A stretch of DNA of 59,425 nucleotides, from positions 1 to 59,425 of the IMG/VR virus record IMGVR_UViG_3300009129_001581; one strand, given 5' to 3'. Both the position numbers and the translations under genes were made by a program. Positions 1-36,085 of this stretch are shown one piece after another. Positions within the stretch are counted from its first letter, which is position 1, and each line of letters starts with the position of its first letter. This stretch comes from a virus. A model generated the notes under the pieces. The model ran no database searches and was not told the origin of the DNA. It worked only from the letters and a program-made list of their open reading frames with translations.

Positions 1-267
<267 letters not shown>

Positions 268-271
268 ATAT

Positions 272-300
272 TTGACAACATGAGACCACTTTGATATACT
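272..300 (+). promoter_or_regulatory. sigma70-type promoter for the HesB-like gene
   Basis: TTGACA at 272-277, a 17-nt spacer, and TATACT at 295-300. The ATG at 307 is only 6 nt after the -10 box, so transcription should start at or within a base or two of the start codon. No Shine-Dalgarno sequence can fit, which predicts a leaderless mRNA. It begins 5 nt after the tmRNA 3' end. Confidence 0.75.
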
Positions 301-306
301 TAGTAT

Positions 307-627
307 ATGATTACATTAACCAAAATAGCCGCTAAGAAAGTTAGCGCACTACTTGATGATAGGCCCGACAAATTAGGGTTACGCGTTGGCGTACGCGGCG
401 GTGGATGCTCCGGTTTCACATATTTTCTGGAGTTTGCTGAAGAAGTTACCGGACAGGATCGAGAGCTAGAAAGTCATGGAGTTAAGCTTGTTGTGGACTC
501 AAAAAGTTATTTATATCTTATGGGCACCGAGGTGGACTTTAGAGATGACTTAACGGGGGCAGGTTTTAAATTTAATAACCCTAGTGCACGCAGAACTTGT
601 GGTTGTGGAGAGAGCTTTAGTGTTTAA
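307..627 (+). CDS. HesB/IscA/ErpA-type iron-sulfur cluster protein
   Basis: A-type Fe-S carrier/insertion protein of 106 residues, the normal length for the family. The N-terminus MITLTKIAAKKV matches the family start. The three metal-binding cysteines are present: C34 in a GGGCSGF context, and C98 and C100 in CGCGESF near the C-terminus. A-type carriers deliver 2Fe-2S or 4Fe-4S clusters to target proteins in the cytoplasm. Related genes are known as auxiliary genes in marine phages. A plausible client here is the Cys-cluster nuclease at 6387-7163, but this is inference. The start is fixed by homology and by the promoter 6 nt upstream. There is no Shine-Dalgarno, so translation is probably leaderless. 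Confidence 0.93.
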   Translation: MITLTKIAAKKVSALLDDRPDKLGLRVGVRGGGCSGFTYFLEFAEEVTGQDRELESHGVKLVVDSKSYLYLMGTEVDFRDDLTGAGFKFNNPSARRTCGCGESFSV

Positions 628-632
628 TTCTC

Positions 633-938
633 ATGGTTTATAGGGCCACTTTAAAAAAACCTTGGACATCACCGCGAGGTAGATTCTACCCACCAGGAAC
701 AATTTTTACATTTCGTAGAAGATTAAAAGATATAAGCTCAACCATATATTATTTCATAATACCAGGTCAAAATTTTGGTTTTGTTGTTTTATCCGATAAC
801 ATATTTAAACAGCTCACAAAAGAAGAAAAGCATATTAGAGTTCTAAGAGAAAAACAAAGAGAAGAGCATATAAAGAAAACGGTGCCCTTAGCTCGTGTCA
901 CCTCCACCAATTTTTCTGTTATTAAAGACTACTTATAA
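633..938 (+). CDS. Small basic protein of unknown function
   Basis: 101 residues, five bases after the HesB-like gene and presumably co-transcribed with it. The N-terminal half has several aromatic and beta-prone stretches (PPGTIFTFRR, YYFIIPG, FGFVVL), suggesting a small beta-rich fold. The second half is a charged helix (EEKHIRVLREKQREEHIKK). No signal peptide or membrane segment is visible. I do not recognise the family. Its 3' end contains a 13-bp exact copy of the tmRNA 3' end (899-911). The start ATG at 633 lacks a clear Shine-Dalgarno, so the start is only moderately sure. Confidence 0.7.
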   Translation: MVYRATLKKPWTSPRGRFYPPGTIFTFRRRLKDISSTIYYFIIPGQNFGFVVLSDNIFKQLTKEEKHIRVLREKQREEHIKKTVPLARVTSTNFSVIKDYL

Positions 939-953
939 TAAGAGGTATTTATA

Positions 954-1595
954 ATGAAACTTATAATGGAAAACTGGAAGAGGTTCATAAAAGAACATGA
1001 AGAACATGAAGAACATGAAGAATACAAAAGTAACGATTTTTGCACCGAATTCCCAAAAGCATGCTCAGAGGTGTTTGGTACATCGAGGAAAGAGATGCCC
1101 CAGATTAAACACAATGATGATTTCGAATCAGAGTTAGAATCTCCGCCGAATCAAGGCTTAGAGACGAATGAACCGGAAAAAATCCCTGATTTTGGCAAAG
1201 CCACGCCAGCATATTTAGATTCGTCTGATGATGAAGGACCCTGGCCAGAAGGTGATCAAGTTAACGTTAGAGAAATTTCGATTGATCCTAGTGAATTAAA
1301 GCCAACTCAGAAAGATATTTATATCTCCAACTCAATGAAAAAAGTAAAAAATGTTGAAAAAGGGGTGTATCCAGATTTTGGAAAGATATTGGTTTCACAA
1401 GATAATTATTTATTAGATGGCCATCACCGCTGGGCCGCCACAATTATTTATAATTCACGACACCCAGAGAAGCCTAAGAAGATAACTATTCAACAAATCG
1501 CGATGCCAATTAAACAGCTATTGAAAGTTGCCAATGCCTATAACGATGCTCATGGTTACGAGCGCCATTCAGGCGGCGAGACTACAGCGGAATAG
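954..1595 (+). CDS. ParB-like nuclease-domain protein
   Basis: 213 residues. The C-terminal half looks like a ParB/sulfiredoxin-type domain: an ISIDPSELKPTQ strand, then LLDGHHRWAA, which carries the DGHHR motif of the nucleotide-binding pocket. The first 110 residues are acidic and probably disordered, and include a repetitive EHEEHEEHEE stretch encoded by a perfect 9-bp tandem repeat. The start at 954 has AAGAGG upstream at good spacing; a second ATG four codons later is possible. ParB-like domains in phages occur in DNA-binding, CTP-binding or nicking proteins; which applies here cannot be said from sequence. It is followed closely by the small Cys-rich gene at 1598. Confidence 0.75.
   Translation: MKLIMENWKRFIKEHEEHEEHEEYKSNDFCTEFPKACSEVFGTSRKEMPQIKHNDDFESELESPPNQGLETNEPEKIPDFGKATPAYLDSSDDEGPWPEGDQVNVREISIDPSELKPTQKDIYISNSMKKVKNVEKGVYPDFGKILVSQDNYLLDGHHRWAATIIYNSRHPEKPKKITIQQIAMPIKQLLKVANAYNDAHGYERHSGGETTAE
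993..1019 (+). repeat. Three perfect tandem copies of a 9-bp unit
   Basis: The unit GAACATGAA occurs three times back to back (993-1001, 1002-1010, 1011-1019) with a partial fourth. It encodes the Glu-His-Glu run in the ParB-like protein. Copy-number change would stay in frame. Confidence 0.9.
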
Positions 1596-1597
1596 GT

Positions 1598-1762
1598 ATG
1601 AAGTATTGTTTGCATTGCCCAGCTCCAGCAGAATTTGTTATACAATGGGGTCCAAAATCAGATCAAAAAGAGTATGTTTGTTGCGATCATCTAGCAGATG
1701 TAGTAAGGAAAATAAAAGCCATAGAGTTTTTTGTGGTTAAAATAAATAAAATTAATCCTTGA
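1598..1762 (+). CDS. 54-residue cysteine-rich, zinc-ribbon-like small protein
   Basis: Starts ATG at 1598, three bases after the preceding stop, and ends TGA at 1760-1762. The N-terminus MKYCLHCPAPAEF has a CxxC knuckle (C4, C7). A second cluster, VCCDHL, has C28, C29 and H31. Together they look like a small zinc-binding fold. The reading frame, close coupling and Cys pairs argue it is real despite its size. A larger frame in another register (1528-1740) overlaps it but has no such features. No exact family is recognised. The Shine-Dalgarno is weak (AATAGG), so it may rely on coupling to the upstream gene. Confidence 0.65.
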   Translation: MKYCLHCPAPAEFVIQWGPKSDQKEYVCCDHLADVVRKIKAIEFFVVKINKINP

Positions 1763-1797
1763 TTTATACTGGGCACTATAAAGTTTGGTATAGGTAA

Positions 1798-1826
1798 TTG
1801 ACAAACAAGAAAAAAAACAGTACAAT
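1798..1826 (+). promoter_or_regulatory. sigma70-type promoter for tilS
   Basis: TTGACA at 1798-1803, a 17-nt spacer, and TACAAT at 1821-1826. The tilS ATG is at 1839, so the predicted leader is only about 6 nt and has no Shine-Dalgarno. Confidence 0.7.
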
Positions 1827-1838
1827 AAAAGATGAAAA

Positions 1839-2450
1839 ATGATTCGAATTATAAGAAAAATTCCAAGAAATGTTACAATTGCTTTCTCTGGCGGAATAGA
1901 TTCAGTTGTATTCACCGAATTTCTTTTAAAGGGTAAGAGAAAAATTAATTTAGCTTTTTTCAATCATGACACAAATACTTCACGAATTGCACAAGATTTT
2001 GTTGAGAAATATGCTGAAATGAATAATTTAAACTTAAAAGTTGGCCACCCAACTGGTCACCGTGGTAAAAGGTCTTTAGAGGAGTTCTGGCGAGATGAGA
2101 GATACAATTTTTTACAATCTCTTAATGAAAAATTTATTATTACTGGCCACCACCTGAATGATGTGGTTGAGACTTGGGTTATGTCTGCTCTTCATGGAAA
2201 GCCAAAACTAATTCCGTATAGGAGAGAGGGGACGAATATATACCGCCCTTTCTTGATGACAGAAAAATCAGTAATTTTAAATTTTGCAAAAAAGAATAAT
2301 TTAATGTGGTCAGAAGATCCTTCAAACGCAAATACTAATTTTATTAGAAACCATATTCGACACAATATGATGCCATTAGTGTTAAAAGTAAATCCCGGCA
2401 TTAAAACTACAATTCGTAAAAAATTACTTGAAAAATATAAAGAAACTTGA
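1839..2450 (+). CDS. tilS: tRNA(Ile)-lysidine synthetase, minimal catalytic-domain form
   Basis: TilS uses ATP and lysine to convert C34 of tRNA-Ile(CAU) to lysidine, switching decoding from AUG to AUA and charging from Met to Ile. Signature motifs are all visible: the PP-loop SGGIDS (residues 17-22), then RSLEEFWRDERYNFL, GHHLNDVVETW, YRPFL and EDPSNANTNFIRNHIR. At 203 residues it is only the N-terminal catalytic domain; most bacterial enzymes are 300-450 residues with extra C-terminal domains. It has its own promoter and is followed 14 bp later by a CAU-anticodon tRNA, its likely substrate. The start at 1839 gives the normal short lead into the PP loop; an ATG at 1832 is in the wrong frame. 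Confidence 0.93.
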   Translation: MIRIIRKIPRNVTIAFSGGIDSVVFTEFLLKGKRKINLAFFNHDTNTSRIAQDFVEKYAEMNNLNLKVGHPTGHRGKRSLEEFWRDERYNFLQSLNEKFIITGHHLNDVVETWVMSALHGKPKLIPYRREGTNIYRPFLMTEKSVILNFAKKNNLMWSEDPSNANTNFIRNHIRHNMMPLVLKVNPGIKTTIRKKLLEKYKET

Positions 2451-2456
2451 TATAAA
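2428..2456 (+). promoter_or_regulatory. Promoter for the tRNA gene
   Basis: TTGAAA at 2428-2433, a 17-nt spacer, and TATAAA at 2451-2456, placing the start near 2463, two bases before the mature tRNA 5' end. The -10 region is also a perfect T4-late-type octamer TATAAATA (2451-2458), so early and late transcription are both possible. It lies over the last codons of tilS. Confidence 0.55.
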
Positions 2457-2464
2457 TAGATTAA

Positions 2465-2538
2465 GGGCCTCTAGCTCAATAGGTTAGAGCATCCGGCTCA
2501 TAACCGGCAGGTTCGCGGTTCAAGTCCGCGGAGGCCCA
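2465..2538 (+). tRNA. tRNA with anticodon CAU, probably tRNA-Ile2 (AUA decoder)
   Basis: Full cloverleaf: acceptor GGGCCTC/GAGGCCC, D stem GCTC/GAGC, anticodon stem TCCGG/CCGGC with a T-C mismatch at its top pair, loop CTCATAA with anticodon CAT at 2499-2501, 5-nt variable loop, T stem CGCGG/CCGCG with loop TTCAAGT, discriminator A at 2538. CCA is not encoded. CAU could be Met or Ile2. The Ile2 reading is favoured by the adjacent tilS gene, by C4-G69 and C5-G68 in the acceptor stem (known to favour TilS recognition in E. coli), by A37/A38, and by resemblance of the acceptor and D arm to known Ile2 tRNAs. It lacks initiator features. AUA codons are frequent in this window. Confidence 0.93.
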
Positions 2539-2553
2539 CTGGATTAAAAAGAT

Positions 2554-2823
2554 ATGAAAGAAAAAGAATCACTAGAAATATTGCAAGACGTTATAGGGCC
2601 CAATGATGAGGTCTTGGGAATAAACTGGGATAATCATAAGAAATATTCAAAAATTAAAAATTGTTTTAGGATAACTTCTGATTTAATGTCTATAAAATTA
2701 TTAGTAGATCTTATGGACGAGCCAGAAATAAAAGAAGTTTTTTATCATCCTTCTGTATCCCCACCCGGCGCCGGCGTAGACCCTATTTCTCTTAGGTATA
2801 AAATTTATATTGTTTATAACTGA
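2554..2823 (+). CDS. Small protein of unknown function
   Basis: 89 residues, 15 bp after the tRNA and likely on the same transcript. Soluble, mixed charge, with no signal or membrane segment. The tail has a proline/glycine stretch (VSPPGAGVDP) followed by a beta-prone end (RYKIYIVYN). It ends at a strong hairpin terminator. ATG 2554 has an A-rich upstream region without a strong Shine-Dalgarno. No family recognised. Confidence 0.65.
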   Translation: MKEKESLEILQDVIGPNDEVLGINWDNHKKYSKIKNCFRITSDLMSIKLLVDLMDEPEIKEVFYHPSVSPPGAGVDPISLRYKIYIVYN

Positions 2824-2862
2824 TTTCTTTTAAAGCTTGAGGTGCTTTAAAAGAAAATTTTT
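2824..2862 (+). terminator. Intrinsic terminator overlapping the 3' end of the opposite gene
   Basis: A perfect 13-bp inverted repeat (arms 2824-2836 and 2844-2856, 7-nt loop) is followed by A and five Ts at 2857-2862 on the + strand. It ends the tilS/tRNA/2554-2823 transcript. The hairpin lies inside the last codons of the protease gene on the other strand; on that strand no T run follows, so it acts in one direction. Confidence 0.8.
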
Positions 2863-3552
2863 GGTTGACTCGTGACTTGAGGAAATAGAAACATGTTTGA
2901 AATTAGGATGCGTGGCAAACAAAACCCCTATTAATTCCATTTTATAATTTAAAACAGGAGCTCCAGAGCTGCCCCCCGCCGCCGGTATTGTAGATAAAAA
3001 ATTAATATTATCCGGCATCAGACCGCTGTATATTCCATCGAAGATGGGAACTGTTGGTGGGTGGTAGATGCCAATCGGCGCCGCCATACAAAACAGTCTC
3101 GCTCCAATTACGGGCTCTTTGATGCTAAGCTTCAGGGGTGTTATATCTAGGGGTGCCACTGTAAGTAGGCACAAATCAGCTCCTGAGCTTAAATCATTGC
3201 TATGAAGTATTTTCGCTTCGTGGATTTTTTTATTATGAATCACGATATAAACTGATATTTCAAATTCTTTAATTTCATTTAGGGCTTCCTTAACTATATC
3301 GGTGTTGCAAACATGCGCAGCTGTTAAAATATAGCTAAATTTTTTATCTTTAAAAACAACAGAGCCAGAACCAGTCGAAGCGAAGGCTCCTGGTTTGCAA
3401 ATTTTGGATTTTTTATGGCATTTTTTTATTTCTACATTCTTTAATATTTTTACAAAAGATTTTTGTGGTATTGGATTTACTATGGTTGTAATATGGGAAC
3501 TACATCCTAAAGGTGCGAATGTTGCAATTAATAAAGAGATTAACAGTCTCAT
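2830..3552 (-). CDS. Secreted trypsin-like serine protease, possibly a lipoprotein
   Basis: 240 residues. The S1-fold catalytic triad is readable: H80 in LTAAHVC, D126 in GADLCLL and S196 in GGSSGAPVL. The N-terminus MRLLISLLIATFAPLGC is a signal peptide with Cys17 where a lipobox Cys would be, although Pro at -3 departs from the usual lipobox. Extra Cys residues (C45, C52, C82, C128, C155) could form disulfides outside the cytoplasm. It is the only complete gene on the minus strand. A TATAAT box (3559-3564, minus) ends 6 nt before its ATG. Its role is unknown; possibilities include processing a host envelope protein or excluding other phages. Confidence 0.85.
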   Translation of the reverse strand: MRLLISLLIATFAPLGCSSHITTIVNPIPQKSFVKILKNVEIKKCHKKSKICKPGAFASTGSGSVVFKDKKFSYILTAAHVCNTDIVKEALNEIKEFEISVYIVIHNKKIHEAKILHSNDLSSGADLCLLTVAPLDITPLKLSIKEPVIGARLFCMAAPIGIYHPPTVPIFDGIYSGLMPDNINFLSTIPAAGGSSGAPVLNYKMELIGVLFATHPNFKHVSISSSHESTKNFLLKHLKL

Positions 3553-3568
3553 ATAGTAATTATATGAT
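3540..3568 (+). promoter_or_regulatory. Probable promoter for the 3597-3803 gene and phoH
   Basis: TTAACA at 3540-3545, 17-nt spacer, TATGAT at 3563-3568. It gives a leader of about 22 nt that includes the AAGGAG before ATG 3597. It overlaps the divergent protease promoter, so the two may compete. Confidence 0.5.
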
Positions 3569-3587
3569 AATAGCGTTTTTATTTAAG
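3559..3587 (-). promoter_or_regulatory. Probable promoter of the protease gene
   Basis: On the minus strand a perfect TATAAT (3559-3564) ends 6 nt before the ATG, repeating the leaderless spacing seen at 300/307 and 6380/6387. The -35 (CTTAAA, 3582-3587, 17-nt spacer) is weak. It overlaps a + strand promoter. Confidence 0.5.
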
Positions 3588-3596
3588 GAGACAAGT

Positions 3597-3803
3597 ATGC
3601 TACACATATTTGGTTTGATTTTTTTTACTTTTTCGCCCTTTTTGGACGACAATCATATAGCTCAAGTATTTGAGAAGAAAGGGGTTTACAGTGCTGTTCC
3701 TCTAACTCTAAAAAATCAAGAAAGAAAAATAAAAAAAGGTAATTACATACACTGTCCTACTGATTGGGTTAAAATTACGAAAGAAACTAATTATAATAGA
3801 TAA
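3597..3803 (+). CDS. Small secreted or membrane-anchored protein, unknown function
   Basis: 68 residues from ATG 3597, chosen because AAGGAG lies 7 nt upstream; an upstream in-frame ATG at 3513 would run through the promoter and the protease start region. The N-terminus MLHIFGLIFFTFSPF is a hydrophobic signal-like segment. The remainder is a short basic domain with one cysteine (HCPTDWVKI). It is divergent from the secreted protease, so both products may act in the envelope, which is inference. No family recognised. Confidence 0.65.
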   Translation: MLHIFGLIFFTFSPFLDDNHIAQVFEKKGVYSAVPLTLKNQERKIKKGNYIHCPTDWVKITKETNYNR

Positions 3804-3818
3804 GAAAAGGTTTCGACT

Positions 3819-5117
3819 TTGCCAAAAAAAGCTTTTATACTAGATACAAACGTATATTTAACCAATTATAAATCAATCTTACAATTTGGAAGAAACGATA
3901 TAATCATCCCCCTAAAGGTTTTGGATGAAATTGACAAACACAAAAAGAGACAAGATCTTGTCGGTCATCATTGCAGGATGACTATACGATTTCTGGATAA
4001 ACTTAGAAGTAAAGGCAATTTATGTACCGGTGTTCGTCTTGCTCCATATAAAGGAAAGCTTTTTGTTCGCGGATTCGACCCGTTTATTTTACCTGATGAT
4101 TTAGATTTAGAGGATTCAGATAATCAAATTCTTGCAACTACTCTTACGGTTATAAAAAATGAGGATTATTCAAATGTAATAATGGTTTCTCGCGATATAA
4201 ATGTTCGGGTTAAGTGCGATTCACTAAACATAAAATGTCAAGATTATTTAGAGGAAAAGGTAATTGAAGATATAACAAGTGTCTACAGGGGCATAGCGGA
4301 AGATGATGTTGACGACTGTTTAATCGACAGTATATACGATGGCAAATTAGATGAGATAGATATTCCAAACAAAACCCGCCCTAATGAGTTTAAGTTTTTG
4401 AGATCCTCCATTAACCCAAAAAAGGGAGTATTTATTAGGAGTGACCGCCATGGCACACTCAAAAGAGTGACCAACAAACAAGTTTGGTCTCTTAAGCCAA
4501 GAAACAAAGAACAGATGTTGGCAATTGACTTGTTGACTGACTCAGAGATACCTCTTGTAAGCCTAGTTGGTAAAGCTGGGACCGGCAAAACTTTGTTGGC
4601 CTTGGCAGCTGGCTTAGAACAAGTGATAAATCAAAAAAAATATAATAGGATTATAGTTACGAAACCTGTTCAACCAGTTGGGAAAGATATAGGTTTCTTG
4701 CCGGGCACATTACAAGAAAAAATGGCTCCATGGATTTCCCCAATTAAAGATAATTTAAACTATCTTTTTAAAAATGATAAAATGACAATGAATATGTATT
4801 TTGACGAGGGCATCATTGAGGTTGAGGCTATGACTTTCATAAGGGGCAGGTCAATAGCTGATTCGTTTATTATAATAGACGAAGTGCAAAATATGACACA
4901 ACATGAAATCAAAACAGTACTAACTAGAGTTGGAGAAAATACAAAAATTGTTTTAACTGGAGATATACAGCAAATAGACAATGTGTATATAAACTCGACA
5001 ACAAATGGCTTGACTTACGTTGTTGAAAAATTTAAAAACCAGCCAGTGAGCGGACACATCATGCTAGTAAATGGTGAACGTTCTGAGGTAGCAACGATAT
5101 CAGCAGATATATTATGA
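3819..5117 (+). CDS. phoH: PhoH-family ATPase with N-terminal PIN domain
   Basis: 432 residues. Residues 1-130 form a PIN-type nuclease domain: the acidic positions in FILDTNVYL, LDEIDKHK, LEDSDNQIL and VSRDINVRVK are the expected metal ligands. Residues 215-432 form the PhoH P-loop domain: Walker A GKAGTGKT (251-258) and Walker B FIIIDE (350-355), followed by the family stretch QNMTQHEIKTVLTRVG. This PIN+PhoH layout is the YlaK/PhoH2-like type, linked to RNA unwinding and cleavage. PhoH genes are widespread in marine phages, though their role there is unsettled. The start is TTG at 3819 with AAAAGG upstream; MPKKAFILDTN is the natural beginning. Confidence 0.95.
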   Translation: MPKKAFILDTNVYLTNYKSILQFGRNDIIIPLKVLDEIDKHKKRQDLVGHHCRMTIRFLDKLRSKGNLCTGVRLAPYKGKLFVRGFDPFILPDDLDLEDSDNQILATTLTVIKNEDYSNVIMVSRDINVRVKCDSLNIKCQDYLEEKVIEDITSVYRGIAEDDVDDCLIDSIYDGKLDEIDIPNKTRPNEFKFLRSSINPKKGVFIRSDRHGTLKRVTNKQVWSLKPRNKEQMLAIDLLTDSEIPLVSLVGKAGTGKTLLALAAGLEQVINQKKYNRIIVTKPVQPVGKDIGFLPGTLQEKMAPWISPIKDNLNYLFKNDKMTMNMYFDEGIIEVEAMTFIRGRSIADSFIIIDEVQNMTQHEIKTVLTRVGENTKIVLTGDIQQIDNVYINSTTNGLTYVVEKFKNQPVSGHIMLVNGERSEVATISADIL

Positions 5118-19693: not shown

Positions 19694-22600
19694 ATGTTAA
19701 GAAAAATAACTTTAAAAATAAACATTTCTGACACTCGCGCGCGCGAAACAAATGCCGAAGTTGCAGCAAACGATGACTTAGATATACTTCCTGCTCCGTA
19801 TGTTTTCGATTCCACTCTCAGTTTGCAATCTACCGGTGTGCAGGTTCTTATTTTAAAGCATATATTATCGCAGCTGGTTGAGTTTGAAGCATATGAAAAT
19901 GAAGGAGCTTGTGAGGTACCCATATCATGGCAAGACGGCCCATACTTTGATAAAAAGACCAAGTATGTTTTATATAAATATCAAACTTTAAATAGAGAGC
20001 ATATAATCTCTTTCATAAAAAGCAACAAAAGAGCGACGACTGATGAGATAACAAACCAAGAGTCAGAAACTAAATTTGTAGGAGACTTGGGTATCATGTC
20101 ATTGGCTACGATTGCTTGTATGCATGGATATAGAAAACCTTCTAGTCAGCCTGGTGAAACCCCTAGTTCTTACCGGTTTACTAATCACTCTTTCACTGTA
20201 GATTCTGATTCGGATGACTCTGATATAGAAAAATCACAACTTTTTAAAAGCACAGAACACATCTTAAATTTAATAAATGATTTTACTTTGGGTATATACC
20301 CTGATGAGCTAGGAAGAAACGAATCTCCTACCGAAGCAGCTAGTCGCTATGATGCAACATCGCGCAGCAAAGCCGGCGATTGGTTTTCTAAACCAGATCC
20401 GAATATTATAGGACGCGCAGACATCGCAGCCGGCCTAGAGGATGAGCCCTTCGATATCGGTCTAGATAAAATTGGATTATATTTACCAACGGAGTATGAC
20501 TTAAGAAACCCTCCGGTTCTTACTGAATCAAACTGGAAGGAGTATGTAAGAGAGGTAGCGGAAGAAGCCACCGAAAAGATTTTGTTATTTAATGGTATTG
20601 ATATAACGAAGCAATCTATTCTGCGATTATTTTTCAATGATGAAACTTTCTTTGGTTTGTATCCTAACTTTAATAACTACAAGAAAATTCCGAATAATGT
20701 AGAATATTATATTTATCCGAAAGATGAAGATTATGAAGAACACTTTGTTATTGATATGTCAAATATTGATGCTAATTCTGATTTATTCGTTGACCCCACC
20801 AATAGGTCTCACTTTTTTTTACAGGGAATACAATTTTTAGAAGAATCGACGAGTGGCGAAGAATATTTGCCTTTGGTCGAATATACGGGATTCACTACTC
20901 CTTCATTTAGGCCCGGGGCTATATATAAAAACGAGTTTATATTTAGTAGAAAAAAAATAGAAATGATTAAGAATGCCTGGCAAGATTTAACACCGGCCCC
21001 TTCACCGCCGCAGCAGTCTAGATCAGAATCTATGGAACAAAACATAGAAAATAGAAAACAAGAAGAGCTGGATAGAGTTGAAGGCTCGCCATATCCAGAT
21101 CTAGAGAGATCTTTGTCCGATGATTGCATCGAAGGTAAGGTAAATGATTATTTTAATGAAGTTGGGGCAATAAACGCTGTTGTCTCAATGACTCGTGGAG
21201 AACTAAATGAAAATGTAAATAGAGTTATAAGTGACGCTAAAGATAGTATACTCAGGCACGATGCCGTCGACAGCGAGAAAGAGAGAAAAGATTCTAGTTT
21301 AGAAGATCAGATTCGAAATCGTCAAGCTCAAGGCGCCGATGAGGGGAGTATGGGGTCTTTTGGTATGAATGATTCTGCTGCTATGTTGAATCCATCAATG
21401 CCCATGTATGAACCCAAGAAGCCAAAAGATTATAAGCCTGGCCTTATTAATGGGACTTTGTCCGATATTCGTAGTAGAATTAAAAAAGTTTCAAAACTTC
21501 TTAAAGACGCTTCCAAAGAATTGGAAGAGTTGGAAAGCAGCTTGCCTGATAAAACACTAGTGCCGGACATGGATTTGAAAAAAGAGGCCAAATACATGGA
21601 TGAGGCTTTGGTTTATTTTGAAGATTTAGCCAATGCGGCCACTGACCAGGCGGCAATCGATGAGGCTATGCAAATAATAGACACCGGCTACACCGAAGAA
21701 GAAAGAAGATCTATTGTCGAAACATTATCTTCAGATCCCGATGAAATTTATTTTGAATTTGAAACAGAGATGAGCAATAAAAAACAAGGGTACTTGAAAG
21801 TTGTAGACATGGGCGATCAACCTACGATGTATTACAACAAGGACAAACAATTGCTGGTGGACTCAACGGTTTTGCACGCCTGGAATTACAACCGGTTAAA
21901 CAAGATTATGGATTTTTTCTATAGGCCGTCTTACACAATTGGGTATCTGGCAGATATGTTCGGCATGATTTGGGAAAGCAGGTCGGCCGCCTTAAAACTG
22001 GGTGGCTGTTTTACTTTCATGAAATCCGCGGCCTCCGTAGCTTTAATTATAAAGTATACTATCCCCCGCCCAGCAATAGAGCCAAAAATAGGGGAAACGG
22101 ATTGGCCTCCCTTCTCGGGGCCCTTTAAAACCGCAACTAACCAAGCTGCGGATCAATCATTAGCATATGTATTGTCTTTTGAAAAGGCTGTTTTAGATTG
22201 GAAAAAATCCGCCCTCCGCAGCCTGGATGCCCGTCCTCCCTTGCCTGATTTTTCAAAAGAGTTTAACGCGGTTTGTAATTTAGAGAAATTATATCAAAAA
22301 TTCTTGGACAAATTAAACATAGGAAACTTGATTTGTCAAGTTCTGAAATGCATGGGCTTATGGCCAATCGGGATCGATTTTAATTTAAGTTTCATATTGC
22401 CGAAGATGCCGAAGATGCCTACGTTTGATATACTTAAATATCTTCATGTAATAATATATAAAGCGATCATACAAACTCTCGCAAAGGTATTGTGCAACGT
22501 CGCGCAAACTATATTAGATTTGTTAAAGTTAGATTGTAGAGGGCCCGACATAAGCTTAGGTGATAGAGCAGATTATCCTGTATCAAGGGTCCAACATCCT

Positions 22601-25600
22601 TCTCCGGGACCGGTCCCGGGCCTCGGCCAAGCTATTCAAGAGTTAGCCATCGCCGCGGCACGAGTGGGTCTTCCTGAGACTCTTTATGACTCTCCCAATC
22701 ATCCGGCCGGATCACCGCTGCATGGAACCGGAGGTGCAAAGCAATTTGTAGAGGACTTATCTCATTTATTATCTCCATCTGAACAATGTGCACTCTATAG
22801 GGGAGATGGGTCCTTGACGGCCTTAGGTCTTGCTATGAACTTAATTAAAAGAAGTTATTCTAATTCTGATAGCCCTTCTCTTTCGGACTATTTTGATACC
22901 GATGAAGAGATAATGACCTTTTTTGCAAAACTTGGAATAGCCGGCGCATCAGAAGCGTGCAATCTCATCGATGATGTACTAGATCAGGCCGGCCCCGAGG
23001 GCATACCAGAGCTCGACAAGCCGGATGATTGTTTGTGCATTGATGGAGAGTCGTTGAGAGACAAATTTTTGAGATCTCAATTTGCAAATTACTATGCCTC
23101 TGATCCAGATCCTGCCGGATCTGATGGATCGCCACGTTCCAGGGGGCGCCCCTCACAAGATGAGGCAAATGAATTTATGGGAGATGTTACCGCCGCCATG
23201 GCTCGCGAGGCCTTGGATCGAGCAAACAAAAAGAGAGCAGATGTTAAAAAAGCTTTCGAAGAATTGGCAAGTGGAGAATTGATAAGCAAGGTACCCGAAG
23301 AATTAGCTGATTTTTCAAATCCATCTAGCCCACTTTTCGATATTCCTGGGTCCTTTAAATCTCTTCTTAAAACAGCAATCGACGGCACCTTAGAACCAAT
23401 TAAGTCTGAATATTATGAGGATATAAGAAAATATGTCCCCTTTATGCACCAAGAGATAACAACGGTTCACGCAGATAGCCAGTTGGCTACTGGTGCGAAC
23501 CAAGCATTAGAGAGAAAAAAAATAGCAACAATAGAAACGTTGAGAAATTATAATTTTTGGTTATCGATTGTGCGCCCGACCGATTTTGACTTATCGGAAA
23601 TAGACCCAAAGAATATTGATTTGTTGTATTCCTTTTATTGTCTTTTGTACCCGATATACAAAGAGAGGTATTTGGCTCGCTATTCTAATGATCGCACACA
23701 CTATATGCGTCATGATCTTTTTGGCAAAGAAAAATTAGAAGATGCTTTTGAGTCCTTAAGGGTGGGTGTGGACGTTTCTGGAAACCCCCTAGAGGCAGTG
23801 GAGAAAGTTGAGCGCGTCTTGGAGCTTTATCCTTCTCCTTACCCTAGAAAGACTGGATACCGCCCACCACAAGCTTATGATAGAGTCGAAAAGGAATACG
23901 AGGCAAGTACATGGAAAAATTTTATAATCAACACTGATGCTGCGCAAACCTACAACAGGGCGATTAGTTCTAAAACGGTTCGCCCAATGAGGAAAGCCCT
24001 TGAGAAAGTTTCCGGACGCTTAAGGGGGAAACCCTCTGCGCAACTTTCATTCCCTCCTGTCATCCGCGGAGCAACCCCCGGTCGCGCCTCTGATTATAGT
24101 GGCTGGATGTTGACAGACAGTGTGCGAACTGTTCAAATGTTTGCTTTCCAGGATCCTCGATCGGAAATAATAAGATTCGAGGGCCTTCCGGCCAACCAAA
24201 CTACTTTTAGAGCGCCTATAATTACTGGATTTTCCCCACCGGATCTCACGGCAATGCATGCTGGGGACAAACACAAAGGCAAAAAACTTCCAGCAGGGTT
24301 TACTAAAACTTTCAGTTTGGAGACTTTTATTGAAGGAGATCTAGATGAATCGGATCTTTTAAAAAGCGAAATTCTTAAGAAAATAGCAGACCGCTTACAG
24401 GAATTAATAGATGAAATAACAAATGTTTTTAGTTTACAACAGGCGGGTGGATCCGCTGGGTCTGCCACACAGCAGGTGACTGAGTTTTTGCCAAAAGTGA
24501 AGCCACTTTTTCAAAAAGAGTTAGAAATTTCAAGAGAATCTGATGATCAATCTAGGGAAATAATTTATACAAGTAGTTCTCCGGATTCAAAGGCTCGTAT
24601 TGAGCTGAGATCTCCCCCGACGCTGTCTGATATAGGCGAACAATTGATTTCTAGGTTGCAGTCAGATGATGAAGATATCGTAAATCTCCGAGAAAAAATC
24701 AGTAAACAATTAGAAGGGAAAATGCGATTTGAATCATATTATTCGCAAGATTATCGAAATATAAATACTAGCTTTCATGTTATCAAAGACCCTCACTATC
24801 TTAGGAATGTTGATGTCAATAATGTTGATTCGGATAATCATGAAAAAACAATATTTGCAGAAAATTGCAAACTTATACCCGTAAGTTTGATTTCTGATAA
24901 TGAATTGGATTCAATCTATTTTAATGAAAACATTGACTTTGATGGAAGAGAATACCCTAATGCGGTTGGTCTTTACACTGGGATGATCGTCAACGGCGCC
25001 TGGGATTTGTTTAGAAAGCATGATATAGATATAAGAGAGAGAACAGAACCCGGAACTGGAAAAGATCCATATAGTTGGATTTCTGACACATATGACGAAG
25101 CCGTGGAATTTTATTTTGAAGACGTGTTTGATCAGGTGTTTGATTCACCTTTTATTTCTGATGAAAATTATATAGAAATAATAAAAAAGAAGTTAACAGG
25201 AGTTCCGTATACAAAAGAAGAAGAAGATGATAGCGGCTGTAATTTAGAAAGAACAGGGTATGAGCCAGTTAAAATTCTAATTGACTTTGAAAGAGAGATT
25301 GAGGCAGCACTATCTAGGGTGATAAGCAGATTAAGAACTCCAAATTCGCTTAGAAATCATGACTTTAGAAAACCAAGTCCGTTCGAAGAGGGGATAATTG
25401 ACACAGTAGTTTTGTTATTTGTTAAAGTCCTTATGTACGAATTCGCTCTACGCGCAGGCCCAGCAATGTCTGCCTTTAAAGCTAAAGACTTGTTAAACCA
25501 CCAGTTTATTGTAAATTTTGTTGTAGAGTGGATATTAAAACATGAAATAGAAAATTTAAGAGTTTTTAGGTCAAACCCAGAATTAAAAACTCGTTTCTTG

Positions 25601-28600
25601 GAGGCTGTAACAAAAACAACTGGCCAAGAAACAGTTGAGGAAGGTTTGAGGCTCATAATAAGAGAAGAGATGCCGGATGTCGGGACCAGGGTGGACAAAT
25701 TGTTTGATTCATTTATTGAGAATAGCTCAAGTGCCTTCATGGCGCGCCTCCCCTATGGAAGTGTTTTTAATTTGTCTAGTATAAAAAGAGCCCGAGTGGA
25801 TTCTAGTTCAGCTGGCCTTCAAGAAGAGTTTGAATCAGAAATATCTTCAGGTGTAAAATATTTTGATTTATCAATAAATCAACCGGAGAATTCATCAGAA
25901 CAATATACCTCTATGTCCGAAGACCTAGTAGCGGAGGAGGATCAACCCGGTAGGGCTGCTCAAACTAACTTTGTTGAGGATCTTAAAAATAAAGGGGGAT
26001 ATATACTAGAATCCTATGTTAAGCTAAATGGCGAGATCGCAAGACAGTTTAAAGAAATTGCGCTTACGTTTGAGGGACTGCAGGAAGAGTTAAACAAAAT
26101 TGAAGATGCAGAGTTAGCTAGGGATGATCAAGCCGACGTTAATGTGGTACAAAATCAACAGAGGCTGGCAAAACATATAACAGATACAGAAAACGAAGTG
26201 ATTGTCAGTATTCAAGAATTTAGAGACTTTATGCAAGGGACTGTAATCGACCCTATAATGGAAAACTTAGGTTTAGACCTAGACCAATTAGGGTTTTCGG
26301 AAAATTGTAATGGGCGCCCAAAATTTGTTAACAAATACCCCCATACTTTGGTTTCTTTGGATAGAAAGCACACTGTTTTGGACTCTAGGCACATTAATTG
26401 GATGAATTCTCTTGATAACCATGTTCAGCAAAATTATTTGATAGATCCAGAAAGTTTTGAACTAGAGGATGCGCGCCTACAATCTCGCGTTACTAAATTA
26501 TCTAGCCTTGTTGGTTCAGTTCATCCGATGGACGAAGCGACTCAAGGTGCTAGTGGATTTAAGCCGAGAAGATATCTCATGTATCCGGTTGATATGTGCC
26601 CATACATATCTACGTCCAATAGAGAAGAAGACGTGGTTTCGGCAATAATGACATCGGCTAACGCCAATGCAACGGATGCAGAAGTTCATGGAAATGATGA
26701 AGACAATTCTTATTATCAGCTAGAGAGAAGTGTTCATCCCGATACTAGAAATTATAATTATAAGTTTAATTTTTTTGCAAATCCAATCAATACACGTACA
26801 AATTCTAAAAGCAAAGAAGGGTACGCCTTTACTGCACCAAAAGAAATAAATACTAGAAATTTAATTCCTATTTCGGAAGATGAAATGATCTGGAACCCGG
26901 GAACTTCTGGTGATATTATTGCAAAGAATGGTGTAATGTCGGATGAGAAAATAGTTGAGAACATGCCGTTTCAGCTAGAGGAGGAAGACTTAGGAGATTT
27001 TAAGAAAGTAATTCAAAGAGTCCGCGTAAATCGCCCCAACATGTTACAATTAAATTCCAAAATTGGAGCTTCTGACGAAGAGTATCTTGAAGACCTGGAG
27101 GATCTCGGTTATAGCTTAAATAACGCCGGCTCACCCTTTGAAAATGCTTTAGCTGGGAATTATGAAATCTCAGCAGCAAAATTTAATGAAATAAAGAGTG
27201 AAAATAGCAACACGTATCAACAGTGGACACAATACGTCGTGGATGTTATTGGGTTTGCGGCACCAATGTTAGACGTCGGCGAAACATTTCATGCATCAAG
27301 CGACCTTCCCTCCATCGAACAACACGAGAAAGAAGTAATCAAGACAGCCGACGGATTTCAATTTTGGAAGAGATATTTGTCGACACCAAGTACAGAAATC
27401 CAACAAGCCCAAACATTTAAAGGCGTTCAGGAAACCGGAAATATCTATACTTTGAGTTCTTTTTTGGTGGAAAACCAAAAAAAATACACACATTTTCCCG
27501 ATCGGCATGGCCTGGCCCGGCTTCACCCAGATGGTGTCCTCGCCCGCGGCATGCATCCGGTTGAGTATACTCGCTGGTTACTGCAAGGTAGCGCTGGGGA
27601 TAACCAAGAAAGGATGTTCTCTGGTTTGTTTGGTCCGTCACTCGCTCAGCAAACTCTTGCCATGCAGCGTCCGTTTTTCGGTAGCGGCCACCCTAGTTGG
27701 GATATCCACACAGAAACAAATCGCAGCAACAATCCGGTTATCAAGGTTGACGAGCTAGCTACCAAGATGTTTATGTTTCATCACAATTCTTTAGAGAATG
27801 TCTCAACCGGATACCTTCGCTCGTTTTATGGTTTAAGTGAAATAGAAGAGAACATAATGCCGGAAGATATTTTTGTGTATTATGGCGAAATGGACAATAC
27901 TCTATCAAATACGTTAGCTGACCCTGCTGCAGCCTTTTTTATGGCAACTTTTGATTATAAACTGAAGCAGAGCGAAGATGACACCGGTGCCCCCACTGGG
28001 CAACCCCCTGTCAGAGAAATAAAGATGTCACGCCCCCTTGGTGTTACTCCGGTATTTTTCTCTTCGGGGGAAGAAAATTGGGCCCAACCAACGGCAGATC
28101 AATCTTGGTTTGAGTTGCGTGCATACACTCCTGATTTACATTTTGATTTTCCGTGGACATATATTAATATGTCTTCATCCGGCCACAAAAGTTATAGTGA
28201 TGATCATCTTTTTAATTCTTGCTTGAAGGTAGTCTACACAGACGAAGAAAAGTCTATTATCAATAGGCATAAAAGATACTATGTTCCTTCTTCAAGAAGT
28301 ATGCGAAAAAACGGCGGCGACTACGGAACATCGATTAACGACCCGATTCATGATAAATTTTTAAAATGGAGGCAGTATTTTAATAGGGTAGACCCCATGT
28401 CTTACAAAGATTATGCTGATGATGCATCAGCTCGCGACCTCCCTCTTCCTCTGAGGACCCCAGGGAGTTATTATTGGCCGGATACTGCTTTATCTCATCG
28501 CCCGGGAGTGCAAGGATCTAAACAGCGCCTTGACTTAACAAGTCTTTTTGGTACGTGGAGGAACAACTTGTATGATCACAGTACAGCCTATGGTCAATTA

Positions 28601-31600
28601 TATTCCGACGCGGGAAGAAAAATAAAAAATCATGTTAGAGATGCTGAGGGGAGTTTTTATAATTATTCCTTGTCTCGACTTGATAAATGGAGCAATGGGA
28701 AGTCCAATACATCAAGAAATTGGAAATCCAAGATAAGGGAGGAGTATCGTCAATTCAGTGTGAGTGACCAAGTCGATGATCGGACCCCCGGAGCCGACGG
28801 TGGCCCAGCTGTAGGTATTAATATGACCATAGCTTGGAATTTAAAAGATGCTAGACAAATATTACAAAGGTATGACTGGTCGCTACATAATATTTTTAAT
28901 TTTGATCCTGTTGGTGTTCATTCTCTTAGCATGAATGCTCCGACCTCTTGTGCCAATCGAACAGGGGGTGAAGGGTATTCTGCTTACGCTGAGATGGCAT
29001 CCCGGGATTTGAGATGGCATTCTGGGAGAATAACCAACGGGGATCTTGGGCATTATATGTACATACCCTATACAAATGATTATTCTCTCTCTCGCGGTGC
29101 ATATAATGCTGTCAGGGCTTCGATCCTCGCCACAGAAAAAAAGCCTGCAGGCTTGCACTTATCTCATTACCGCTCAGGTGAAAGACAATCTTTTGGATTA
29201 ATGAACCTTTCCTATAACCAGATTTTATATCCAATACCTTTATCTGGGTCAATCTTAGGAAATTTGACTTATGTTGATGGATATTCTCTTCGCGAAGATG
29301 GTAATCATAACAGAAGACAAAAACCAGGCCGGTATTTTAAAATTCCATATAGGAGAATCCAGCCTGCGCAGTTTATTTCTCCCATAAGAAGAAAAATTTC
29401 TACCTCTGATTTATATTATGATTCTGAAACTTTTCAGATTATGCATCGCTATACTAACTGGATGAATACTAAATTAGATGAATATTCTCGAAGTGAAGGC
29501 TGGAACAATCAGAGTGAAGTGCTTGCAGACATTTTATATAAAAAAGAACGAGCCCAGAAACATTCTGCTAAGCATAAATTGCCACCGCTGCACTTTTTTC
29601 AGAAAAATTTAGTAAAAAACCATTATCATTCTCCGAATCAAGTTCGGTGCCCTCTTCGGTTGTTTTTTACGAGGGTTGATTATTTTATTGGAAACAGGAA
29701 GGAAGCTTCGAAGGTATTTTTTGCCTATGACATTCCTCATACTTTAAAGGGCGCCAAAACTGAATACAACGAAGCACTAGTTAGGCTAGAGCCTGTTCAC
29801 TCCCCCTACAGAAAGAAAATGTTACAAGCTGGCTTAAGAAAAGCCGCATATGAATATTTAGATTATTCAAAGTTAGAGCGTTTTGCAATGAGGATGCCAA
29901 ATAATGGATCAAATATTTATAAATTATTAGATAAAGAAACCTCAAATGCTTTGTCTATGACATGGTATTTGCCTCACCCCGGGTTGATGAATGAGAATCC
30001 GAATAAGTGGGCTTTTAGGAATTTTTCACAACCAACCCTGGCCGGGACAGTCGGGATCCTCGGCCGCTGGAAGATGAGAAAAACACACCCGCATGGCAGG
30101 AAGCCGTCCCCGGGTTTTTATGATTCTGTAACGAATTACGCTTCTTCCGTAAATGCGACACAAACTATATCAACTCATCCTCCGGTTATGAATCCTTCGC
30201 TAGTTAATTATAATATATCGGCCGCAACTACTCCTATCGGAGGAGCAAATAGTCTTGTTTTTCCTGAAAATGTTACAAAGGTTAAAAAAACCTCTAAGCC
30301 AGACACTGGCCTTTATTTTTTGGATAGGGTCTCAAAGGCTCTTCATGGCGAATTGTTAAGTTGGAATCATAACCCAGCTTTACCAGAGGGCTACGGAGAA
30401 CCCGACCTCGCGGGCAAACTATCTCGCCGATCACAAGATAGGAACTCAGCAGGCACATACCAACACTCTAATCAACTAAATCAGCACTTGGATGCTATTT
30501 TTTATTCTAATTGTGGAATTCCACATGGGGGCCCTTATATTATTTCTACAGAGGGAATTAATCAAGAGGGAGGTTTTAATCAAGAGGGGCGTTTAAATTT
30601 TGCACATGACGCTTTGAAAACAGATTATAAGAAGCATGTTTTATATGCATTCGCCGATTCACTAAAGAATGATAGAAACGGCGGAGACAGGAAGATGTTT
30701 CGCTATTCTCCCGGAAACATCGCGAGCCCGGGACCTTCATATCAACATTATAAATTAGAAGACGAGCAAACTAAACATAGGCTTTGTATAGATATGTACG
30801 TTCCAATTCCCAGTCGTTCGCTGAGAGATGATATGAATTACACTTGGAGCGCTTTTTTTAAAGCTCCGAATAAAAATCACGGGAACAGAATTAAAAAGGA
30901 TTACACTTATGCTCCTGTTGCCGGCTCTTATTTTTATAATCCTGCTATTCGAACTTCGGGCTCAGCAGCTAGAACTGGTCATAGCCTCGTAACTTCAGCG
31001 AACCATTCAAATCATTTTAATCAACAGACTTCCAAATTTATGGTAGACCCTTTTATGAGCTTTTGTGGCCATGGGAACTTAATGTCTTACAGGCACATCC
31101 TCCCTCAAATAAATAGAGATTTCTTCACAGGGAAGGATGAACTTGTTCATCTTGATGAGGAGTCTTGGAAAACCCGAGTGGCCTCGCAGCTTGCTGTCAG
31201 CAAAGGCTTTGTTACAGTTGCTAAGGTGTATAGTTTGGCAGCACACGAAGAGGTAGCTCAATCTTATTTAGATCACGAGGATAGGCACAAACCCGCCGCG
31301 GAAAGCTTTGAAGTTAATGCTTTTTTGCATGAGGACAAATACATAGATAGGCAGTTTGCGAGATTGATGTCTATTGAATTAAAATCGATACATAAAAATG
31401 AGAATTCTGTTAGTAGAGTTGATCTCCGCGATGCTGATCAAAAAATTCCATATTTAACGGATTTTGGGGCGCTTTTATATAAGTCAGCTGGGCGCGCCCC
31501 GATTAACTTGTCAAATCACAGCAAAGCACATATAAGCCATACCACTGCGATCCACCCACAAGCAGCAACTGTTTTTCATCACCCGGCGAAGAAACACATC

Positions 31601-34279: not shown

Positions 34280-36085
34280 ATGTCGAAGAAAAGAAGACCT
34301 TTAATAAATTATACAAGTAGAGACTACTCTTCAATTAGAAGAGACTTATTGAATCATGTAAAAAAGTACTATTCTAGTACTTACAAAGATTTCAATGAGG
34401 CTTCTTTTGGGTCTCTTATGTTGGACACAGTGTCTTATGTGGGAGATATGTTATCCTTCTATTTAGACTATCAAGCAAACGAGTCTTTTATGGATACGTC
34501 GATAGAGTATGAGAATGTGATTCGTCATGCTAAAACATTAGGATATAAATTTAAAAATAATCCGAGTTCTCATGGGATGTGTACTTTTTTTATCCTAGTA
34601 CCATCCCAAATGAACAGCAATCGTCCTGACTTGAGGTATGCCCCGACATTAGAGAGGGGTTCTCTTGTATCAAGCTCCGGCGGAACGACGTATACACTAG
34701 TTGAAAATGTTAATTTTGCAGACCCCGATCATGAAAGGGTTGTGGCTATTGTCGATGATGCGGCAGACTCTTCTGCGCCAACTTTTTTTGCGATAAAGGC
34801 TGTTGGTCGAATTGTCTCTGGGGAATTAGCCGAATCTTATGAGACTTTGGGGGACTTTAGAAGGTTTAGAAAAGTATCTCTTCCGGGAGAAAATATATCA
34901 GAAATAGTCTCTGTTGTGGATGACGACGGAAACGAGTACCATGAAGTAGATTATTTATCTCAAGACGTAGTTTTTAAAGAAATTGTGAATAAAGATTTTA
35001 CTTTAGACTCAGTTCCTTCAATATTGAAACCAGTCGCCGTACCGAGAAGGTTTGTTGTTGAGCAAACTAATGAAAGAACTTTTTTACAGTTTGGTTATGG
35101 AAATGAGGATGAGATACTGGGTAATCCGATTATAGACCCTTCTCTAATCTCTTTGAATCTTCATGGGAAAAATTATGTAGAAACCCCCACATTTGACCCC
35201 TTGAGTTTAACAAAAACTGATAAATTTGGCATCTCTCCTTCTAACACCGTCTTAAGAGTCATATATAGGATCAATACAGAGAAAAATGTAAATGCGGCCG
35301 CCCGCGCGATAAATACCATAAATACACCGCTATTATACTTCAAGGATCGTCACGAATTAAGAGAAGACTTTTTAGAAGTCGTTCTCAATAGTATAGAGGT
35401 TGAAAACGAGGCTCCGGTTATAGGGGACATAACCTTACCAAAAACAGATGAAATAAAGAGGAGAGCAATAGACTCTTATGCAACACAACATAGGGCAGTA
35501 ACCAAGCAGGATTATAAAAGCATGACTTACTCCATGCCGTCTCAGTTTGGTGCAATAAAGAGATGTGCAGTATATCGAGACACAAATGATTTACAACGAG
35601 CCTTAAATATATATGTAATTTCAGAAGATTACAGGGGTGGTTTGGTTCAAACTAACAATACAATAAAGAAGAATTTAAAAACTTGGCTAAATTCAGTTAG
35701 GATGATATCTGATTCTGTGGAAATTTTGGATGCGAAAGTCATTAACTTGGGCATAAAGTATGAAGCTATAACAGAAAACTTTTCAAATAAAGAGAAAATC
35801 TTGAAGAAAGCAAACAATGCTTTGATAAAAGCATTGACAACAACACTCCCGGAAATAGGAGAAAATTTTTATATTTCGTCTGTTTTTAAGGTCCTGAAAG
35901 ATGTTGAAGGTATATTGGATGTTACAAGTGTGAAATTGCAACACAAAACGGGAACCAATTATCATGATTCAAGAATAGAGTTATCGGAAAGGATTTCCCG
36001 CGATAACCGCGTATTCATGACTCCAGGGCAATATCTCTGGGAAATCAAATATCCAAAATTAGATATTATAGGTATTTTGAAGTAA
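34280..36085 (+). CDS. 6: Baseplate wedge protein, gp6/baseplate J family
   Basis: 601 residues (T4 gp6 is 660). N-terminal INYTSRDYSSIRRDLL, then DFNEASFGSLMLDTVSYVGD and MLSFYLDYQANESFMDTS is the signature of baseplate J/gp6 proteins. The centre has HRAVTKQDYKSMTYSMPSQF, another family block. gp6 dimers form the ring of the baseplate that changes shape on contraction. The start lacks a clear Shine-Dalgarno. The stop overlaps the next start (TAATG). Confidence 0.93.
   Translation: MSKKRRPLINYTSRDYSSIRRDLLNHVKKYYSSTYKDFNEASFGSLMLDTVSYVGDMLSFYLDYQANESFMDTSIEYENVIRHAKTLGYKFKNNPSSHGMCTFFILVPSQMNSNRPDLRYAPTLERGSLVSSSGGTTYTLVENVNFADPDHERVVAIVDDAADSSAPTFFAIKAVGRIVSGELAESYETLGDFRRFRKVSLPGENISEIVSVVDDDGNEYHEVDYLSQDVVFKEIVNKDFTLDSVPSILKPVAVPRRFVVEQTNERTFLQFGYGNEDEILGNPIIDPSLISLNLHGKNYVETPTFDPLSLTKTDKFGISPSNTVLRVIYRINTEKNVNAAARAINTINTPLLYFKDRHELREDFLEVVLNSIEVENEAPVIGDITLPKTDEIKRRAIDSYATQHRAVTKQDYKSMTYSMPSQFGAIKRCAVYRDTNDLQRALNIYVISEDYRGGLVQTNNTIKKNLKTWLNSVRMISDSVEILDAKVINLGIKYEAITENFSNKEKILKKANNALIKALTTTLPEIGENFYISSVFKVLKDVEGILDVTSVKLQHKTGTNYHDSRIELSERISRDNRVFMTPGQYLWEIKYPKLDIIGILK

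Follow-up and report, generated by a model that had tools for sequence, protein, structure and literature searches.

A small phage TilS gene beside a tRNA-Ile2 gene: a probable two-gene cassette for AUA decoding

A gene for a short TilS and a gene for a tRNA-Ile2 with a CAU anticodon were found next to each other in a phage genome, and we consider it quite probable that they form a two-gene cassette for AUA decoding, in which TilS is made before AUA becomes readable. The DNA comes from IMG/VR virus record IMGVR_UViG_3300009129_001581, and the whole stretch analyzed, positions 1-59,425 of that record (59,425 nucleotides), is referred to as the window. The original prediction of a minimal TilS and a CAU tRNA lying 14 bp apart was confirmed, with the ORF at 1839-2450, the tRNA at 2465-2538 and a gap of 14 bp on the same strand between the tilS stop and the tRNA start. 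The features of the locus are as follows.

1798..1826, + strand: candidate sigma-70-like promoter of tilS, TTGACA-17-TACAAT (by consensus match only)
1839..2450, + strand: tilS, catalytic (N-terminal) domain only, 203 aa (by ORF, domain models and fold)
2451..2458, + strand: TATAAATA, candidate late-type or -10 promoter element of the tRNA (by consensus match only)
2465..2538, + strand: tRNA-Ile2 gene with CAU anticodon, probable TilS substrate, CCA not encoded (by ARAGORN, Rfam and classifier)
2499..2501, + strand: CAU anticodon, at position 35 of the tRNA gene; C34 would be the base converted to lysidine

The 203-aa ORF scores 119.8 bits against Pfam ATP_bind_3 and 122.8 bits against the NCBIfam model lysidine_TilS_N (TIGR02432), above the curated cut-off of 93.6, while other models stay below their cut-offs. 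Sequence searches against solved structures returned TilS proteins only, matching by the catalytic domain only. The AlphaFold model of the protein has a pLDDT of 94, and the solved folds nearest to it are 1wy5, 2e21 and 2e89, with TM-scores to Aquifex aeolicus TilS of 0.83-0.85 when normalized by query length. Residues aligned with Aquifex D36, R113, H133, D137, E140 and R205 are all conserved. The protein possesses the PP-loop motif SGGxDS, and Aquifex D36, H133, D137, E140 and R205, which we take to be the TilS catalytic residues, correspond to D21, H104, D108, E111 and R174, which are invariant across 37 phage proteins. It ends approximately where the catalytic domain ends (query residue 195 equals Aquifex residue 226 of 317), with a terminal helix followed by the stop. 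Both C-terminal tRNA-binding domain 1, found in types I and II, and domain 2, found in type I, are absent. By sequence and predicted fold, we place the protein among TilS catalytic-domain proteins but in neither type I nor type II, and the model score, fold and catalytic residues uphold the earlier view of it as a minimal TilS.

Five collection scans yielded 341 viral tilS loci, of which 151 were left after removal of those above 85% identity. The small size of a stand-alone, 203-residue catalytic-domain TilS had also been pointed out before, and it turns out to be the rule in phages, where the viral proteins have a median of 203 aa (5-95%: 197-224) versus 437 aa for matches in bacterial genomes. 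A tree of 69 sampled proteins, built by a quick method and midpoint rooted, places phage TilS in one clade apart from cellular TilS (SH-aLRT 99.9). The scan of bacterial genomes gave cellular TilS from many phyla together with three short proteins of the phage type, whose contigs had been binned as Halobacteriovorax (L105), Opitutia (L107) and Flavobacteriales (L108). These are probably phage contigs within bacterial bins, and a CAU tRNA lies near the short tilS in L105 (526 bp) and L108 (17 bp). The bins hint at the host range of the wider group; the bin names were rejected as a host assignment for the phage of the window.

The tRNA at 2465-2538 was detected both by ARAGORN and by Rfam RF00005 (67.9 bits), and its predicted RNA fold has a z-score of -4.6. 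For its identity, we clustered the CAU tRNAs of bacterial genomes together with the annotated E. coli ileX, metT and metU without using labels, and the two resulting groups hold the Ile2 and the Met tRNAs of E. coli, respectively. A position-wise Ile2/Met classifier trained on them was correct in 35 of 35 leave-one-out cases, with labels taken from the same clustering. It favors Ile2 over elongator Met by 38.5 bits for the tRNA of the window, whose nearest neighbors are all Ile2, and the positions C4-G69, C5-G68, A73, C32 and A37-A38 are all present. The tRNA also has a G1-C72 pair, and is thus not an initiator; initiator tRNAs are without the 1-72 pair. These Ile2-type positions and the classifier margin bear out the prediction that the tRNA is probably Ile2. 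The ARAGORN label of tRNA-Met was set aside, since it reflects the anticodon alone.

The two genes are repeatedly linked in other phages. Of the 151 non-redundant loci, 53 have a CAU tRNA no more than 300 bp from tilS; about two-thirds are without one at this distance. Among tRNAs within 300 bp of tilS, 55 of 100 have the CAU anticodon, versus 35 of 365 farther away (odds ratio 11.5, p=7e-21), and all 55 share the strand of tilS. When proteins are clustered at 60% identity, adjacency is found in at least one member of 21 of the 54 clusters. We define the window's clade as the 22 representatives with TilS at least 54% identical; in 21 of them a CAU tRNA follows tilS at a distance of up to 300 bp, in most cases 9-25 bp, and in the remaining one at 634 bp. 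A second group (L023, L056-L061, L226 and L367) has the CAU tRNA 15-31 bp upstream of tilS. Of the 55 CAU tRNAs close to tilS, 53 were classified as Ile2. The combination of C4-G69 with C5-G68 is present in 20 of 21 linked tRNAs of the window's clade versus 12 of 33 outside it; such acceptor-stem freedom would be expected if the mini-enzyme did not read the acceptor stem, which it does not prove. Comparative sequence evidence thus presents the pair as a real, widespread and conserved feature. Its reading as an enzyme with its substrate is supported by the Ile2 type of the tRNA, the conserved linkage on either side of tilS, the short enzyme form and the over-use of AUA described below.

AUA accounts for 44% of the isoleucine codons in the window (28 per 1000 codons), versus 32% predicted by the composition of four-fold degenerate sites (z = 8.6). 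With base composition as the benchmark, the earlier statement that AUA is frequent here is correct. The ratio of observed AUA to the composition expectation is 1.36 in the window, 1.22 in an overlapping 140 kb contig and 1.28 in Pseudomonas jumbo phage PA5oct. The corresponding value is 0.60 in T4 (49 kb), which has its own tRNA-Ile and no reported phage tilS.

The tilS genes themselves are poor in AUA in most lineages. Outside the window's clade (127 phage tilS genes), AUA makes up 143 of 1650 isoleucine codons, that is 8.7% versus 28.7% in neighboring ORFs (p=6e-86); neighboring ORFs were called mechanically and the representatives are related, so that all p-values on AUA are indicative only. 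The log2 odds for AUA in these tilS genes is -2.1, whereas the next most depleted codon reaches -0.44 and other A-ending codons are close to 0. Inflation by spurious neighboring ORFs was rejected as an explanation because the difference persists with conserved neighbors only, at 9.5% versus 25.4%; in AUA-rich phages it becomes 9.7% versus 38.6%, with tilS lower in 36 of 37. Counted by 60%-identity cluster, AUA in tilS falls below expectation in 47 of 51, with a median ratio of 0.23. The effect is weak in the window's clade (37.1% versus 46.6% in neighbors, p=3e-4), and the tilS of the window uses AUA for 3 of 17 isoleucine codons (codons 5, 20 and 134), the seventh lowest among 87 genes of the overlapping contig. 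Since tilS of this clade hardly avoids AUA, the order-of-expression step is weakly supported for the phage of the window. In PA5oct, tilS has 2 AUA among 15 isoleucine codons versus 55% in the phage.

Cellular tilS genes of AUA-rich bacteria have no significant avoidance of AUA (21.2% versus 23.3%, p=0.23), and the idea that cellular tilS behaves in the same way was rejected. We also rejected the idea that avoidance is unique to phage tilS, as tail tube, DNA polymerase, DNA ligase, IMP dehydrogenase, ClpP and capsid genes likewise avoid AUA. The claim that stands for tilS concerns the strength and the codon specificity of the avoidance, as judged from codon counts. In the capsid genes of eight relatives (L500-L507), AUA is used for 8 of 245 isoleucine codons despite AUA-heavy genomes with the tRNA-Ile2/TilS cassette. 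Their avoidance belongs to a shift that affects codons in general (SD 1.5 for the other codons), whereas the shift of tilS is in AUA alone (SD 0.19) and correlates with the capsid pattern at r = -0.25. As the two do not track each other, the bias of tilS is not general optimization. High expression, or recent transfer out of an AUA-poor host, is argued against by the undepleted A-ending codons and by this unlikeness to capsid genes. Among 26 gene families on phage contigs, the shift of tilS is the most AUA-specific, and in subsamples of 15 loci from outside the window's clade its specificity ratio is -6.2 (5-95%: -9.3 to -3.9) versus -5.0 for tail tube, a lead over the next family that appears modest. 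The capsid counts show that AUA is still ill suited to the product made in the largest amount. Since capsid genes keep away from AUA even where the cassette is present, its benefit probably goes to the bulk of AUA-rich phage genes and not to the main late protein.

The genome around the pair was characterized as well. IMGVR_UViG_3300013114_000583, the 140 kb contig, derives from another sample, overlaps positions 1-3762 of the window at 100% identity and continues leftward. It encodes a gp23-family major capsid protein (PF07068, E=2.6e-64), none being present in the window itself, and on this sequence evidence we assign the phage of the window to the T4-like phages. A trypsin-like protease gene (2830-3552, - strand) and a PhoH2-like ORF with PIN plus PhoH (3819-5117) adjoin the pair, the protease on the opposite strand. 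A phage tmRNA at positions 1-267 is truncated by the left end of the window and complete in the overlapping contig (L006, 3124-3429; Rfam, 127 bits). Its tag is ANDDVEIFEDFALAA, and a tmRNA is present in the relatives L011 and L014 too. The tmRNA 3' end at about 258-270 has a 13-bp copy, CACCTCCACCAAT, roughly 640 bp downstream at about 899-911, and the two flank an ErpA/IscA-like gene (307-627) and an ORF (633-938); the repeat might have been left by an insertion at ssrA, or be due to chance. Two giant ORFs of 4695 aa and 6548 aa (19694-33781 and 37932-57578) lie beside a baseplate-wedge-like gene (34280-36085), and the 4695-aa protein gave no match to PHROG families.

Each gene of the pair had been proposed to have its own promoter, which is plausible by consensus match only. 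Before tilS, TTGACA-17-TACAAT at 1798-1826 matches the consensus at 11 of 12 positions. The motif TATAAATA at 2451-2458 directly follows the tilS stop and lies 6 nt upstream of the tRNA; as it occurs 18 times in the window versus 6.8 expected, one occurrence counts for little as evidence. In 21 of 36 relatives the tRNA has a TATAA-type motif ahead of it, a raw count without a chance expectation, and exact TATAAATA is found in only a few of them. A T4-late promoter ahead of the tRNA is a candidate by motif.

We propose that the phage would transcribe its own tRNA-Ile2 bearing the CAU anticodon, and that the mini-TilS would turn C34 into lysidine with ATP and lysine. The modified tRNA would be charged with isoleucine by host IleRS and read AUA, not AUG. 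The cassette would thereby add AUA-reading capacity at times in infection when the host's own tRNA-Ile2 or TilS activity is insufficient, and in most lineages outside the window's clade the nearly AUA-free tilS could be translated before AUA can again be read. Without its modification, tRNA-Ile2 can accept methionine, to an extent that differs among MetRS enzymes (PMC12514573), so a phage that adds a tRNA-Ile2 gains from adding the modifying enzyme as well. A counterpoint to the cassette is that cellular TilS picks tRNA-Ile2 over tRNA-Met through its C-terminal domains (PMC12514573), which the phage protein does not have. One answer would be a third, phage-confined class of TilS that consists of the catalytic domain only, selects its tRNA by the anticodon arm and acts as an AUA switch, with AUA-poor tilS made first and AUA-rich phage genes translatable only afterwards. 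The acceptor-stem pairs lost outside the window's clade and the rank of tilS among the 26 families are hints of it, and we hold it as a tentative extension that is possible and on the doubtful side.

Other explanations were weighed against the cassette. The phage TilS could mainly act on the tRNA-Ile2 of the host, or on every CAU-Ile2 tRNA, to restore or boost its modification, the adjoining tRNA being one translation gene among many and no special partner. The many tilS loci with no CAU tRNA nearby and the position of PA5oct tilS some 7 kb from the tRNA cluster would conform to it, as would T4, which according to the available part of PMC1524935 has tRNA-Ile2 without a phage tilS, so that host TilS can suffice there. 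The 11.5-fold enrichment of CAU tRNAs beside tilS, always on the same strand, and the adjacency retained in 21 of the 22 members of the window's clade make this explanation unlikely. A short TilS-like protein acting on another tRNA, such as tRNA-Met, or as a different PP-loop tRNA enzyme is scarcely credible. The PP-loop relatives TtcA and TtuA have the same fold, and the domains by which cellular TilS rejects tRNA-Met are missing, but the TilS-specific model alone exceeds its cut-off, the best solved folds are TilS, the catalytic residues are invariant, the linked tRNAs are Ile2-type, and the avoidance seen in most phage tilS genes concerns AUA alone.

A role in counter-defense, with the pair replacing tRNA-Ile2 destroyed by a host anticodon nuclease or by the phage's own degradation of host RNA, appears very unlikely. 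Phage tRNAs can oppose tRNA-cleaving defenses, as the general literature indicates in the part available (e.g. PMC12409363). The avoidance of AUA in tilS would also fit a period of unreadable AUA. Against this, we know of no nuclease that targets tRNA-Ile2, and a replacement tRNA alone would be enough if host TilS persists. The analysis gave no evidence for the earlier suggestion that the pair might protect the phage from cleavage of host tRNA.

The AUA-decoding cassette has several implications. Avoidance of AUA in most phage tilS genes would be a sign, visible in the sequences, that the capacity to read AUA is limiting at the time of tilS expression, which is relevant to the debated reason for which phages encode tRNAs. 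The same mini-enzyme is encoded on hundreds of further phage contigs. With a large phage family devoid of C-terminal domains, a 200-residue protein and a 74-nt tRNA from one locus allow a direct test of the need for these domains in Ile2/Met discrimination. We also suggest that many phage tRNAs annotated as tRNA-Met may be tRNA-Ile2. The tRNA cluster of PA5oct (L185, 267000-272500) has three annotated tRNA-Met (CAU), and at least one of them is likely a tRNA-Ile2 because the phage has tilS and 55% AUA use.

Earlier reports exist of TilS in phages, of tRNA-Ile2 in phages and of a viral TilS that serves AUA use. The literature searched, mostly outside subscription journals, described neither a TilS family limited to the catalytic domain, nor its association with tRNA-Ile2, nor a tilS gene that avoids AUA; by this search, the domain-minimal class, the linkage and the codon self-avoidance are new. 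The first phage TilS on record is that of jumbo phage MIJ3, described without a tRNA partner, and upkeep of host viability was proposed (PMC6892783). The Pseudomonas jumbo phages MIJ3 and PA5oct (Arenbergviridae) have the same short TilS family (203 aa, 43% identical), and PA5oct, like the phage of the window, over-uses AUA and has a tilS that avoids it; unlike in the window, tilS of MIJ3 and PA5oct is not beside a CAU tRNA. TilS of Ralstonia jumbo phage RsoM2USA has 349 aa and is longer than the 203-aa family (PMC8504454). Chloroviruses, which infect eukaryotic algae, are described in the available part of a report as having TilS, viral tRNA-Ile genes, an AUA-rich genome and very early transcription of tilS (PMC7589089). 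They share with the window a viral TilS and the same codon-usage hypothesis, and that part mentions neither tilS-tRNA adjacency nor AUA avoidance in tilS. T4-type phages carry tRNA-Ile2 (CAU) (PMC1524935), and the tRNA(CAU) of a T4-like vibriophage carries lysidine in infected cells (review PMC13191261); they resemble the window in this tRNA, but the parts of both sources at hand report no phage TilS, and modification is presumably by host TilS. Cellular TilS is of two types, both with appended tRNA-contacting domains (PMC12514573). Type I (E. coli, Geobacillus) and type II (Aquifex aeolicus) have the PP-loop catalytic domain, the catalytic residues and the fold in common with the protein of the window, whereas type II adds C-terminal domain 1, type I adds domains 1 and 2, and the protein of the window, with neither, falls into a phage-only clade.
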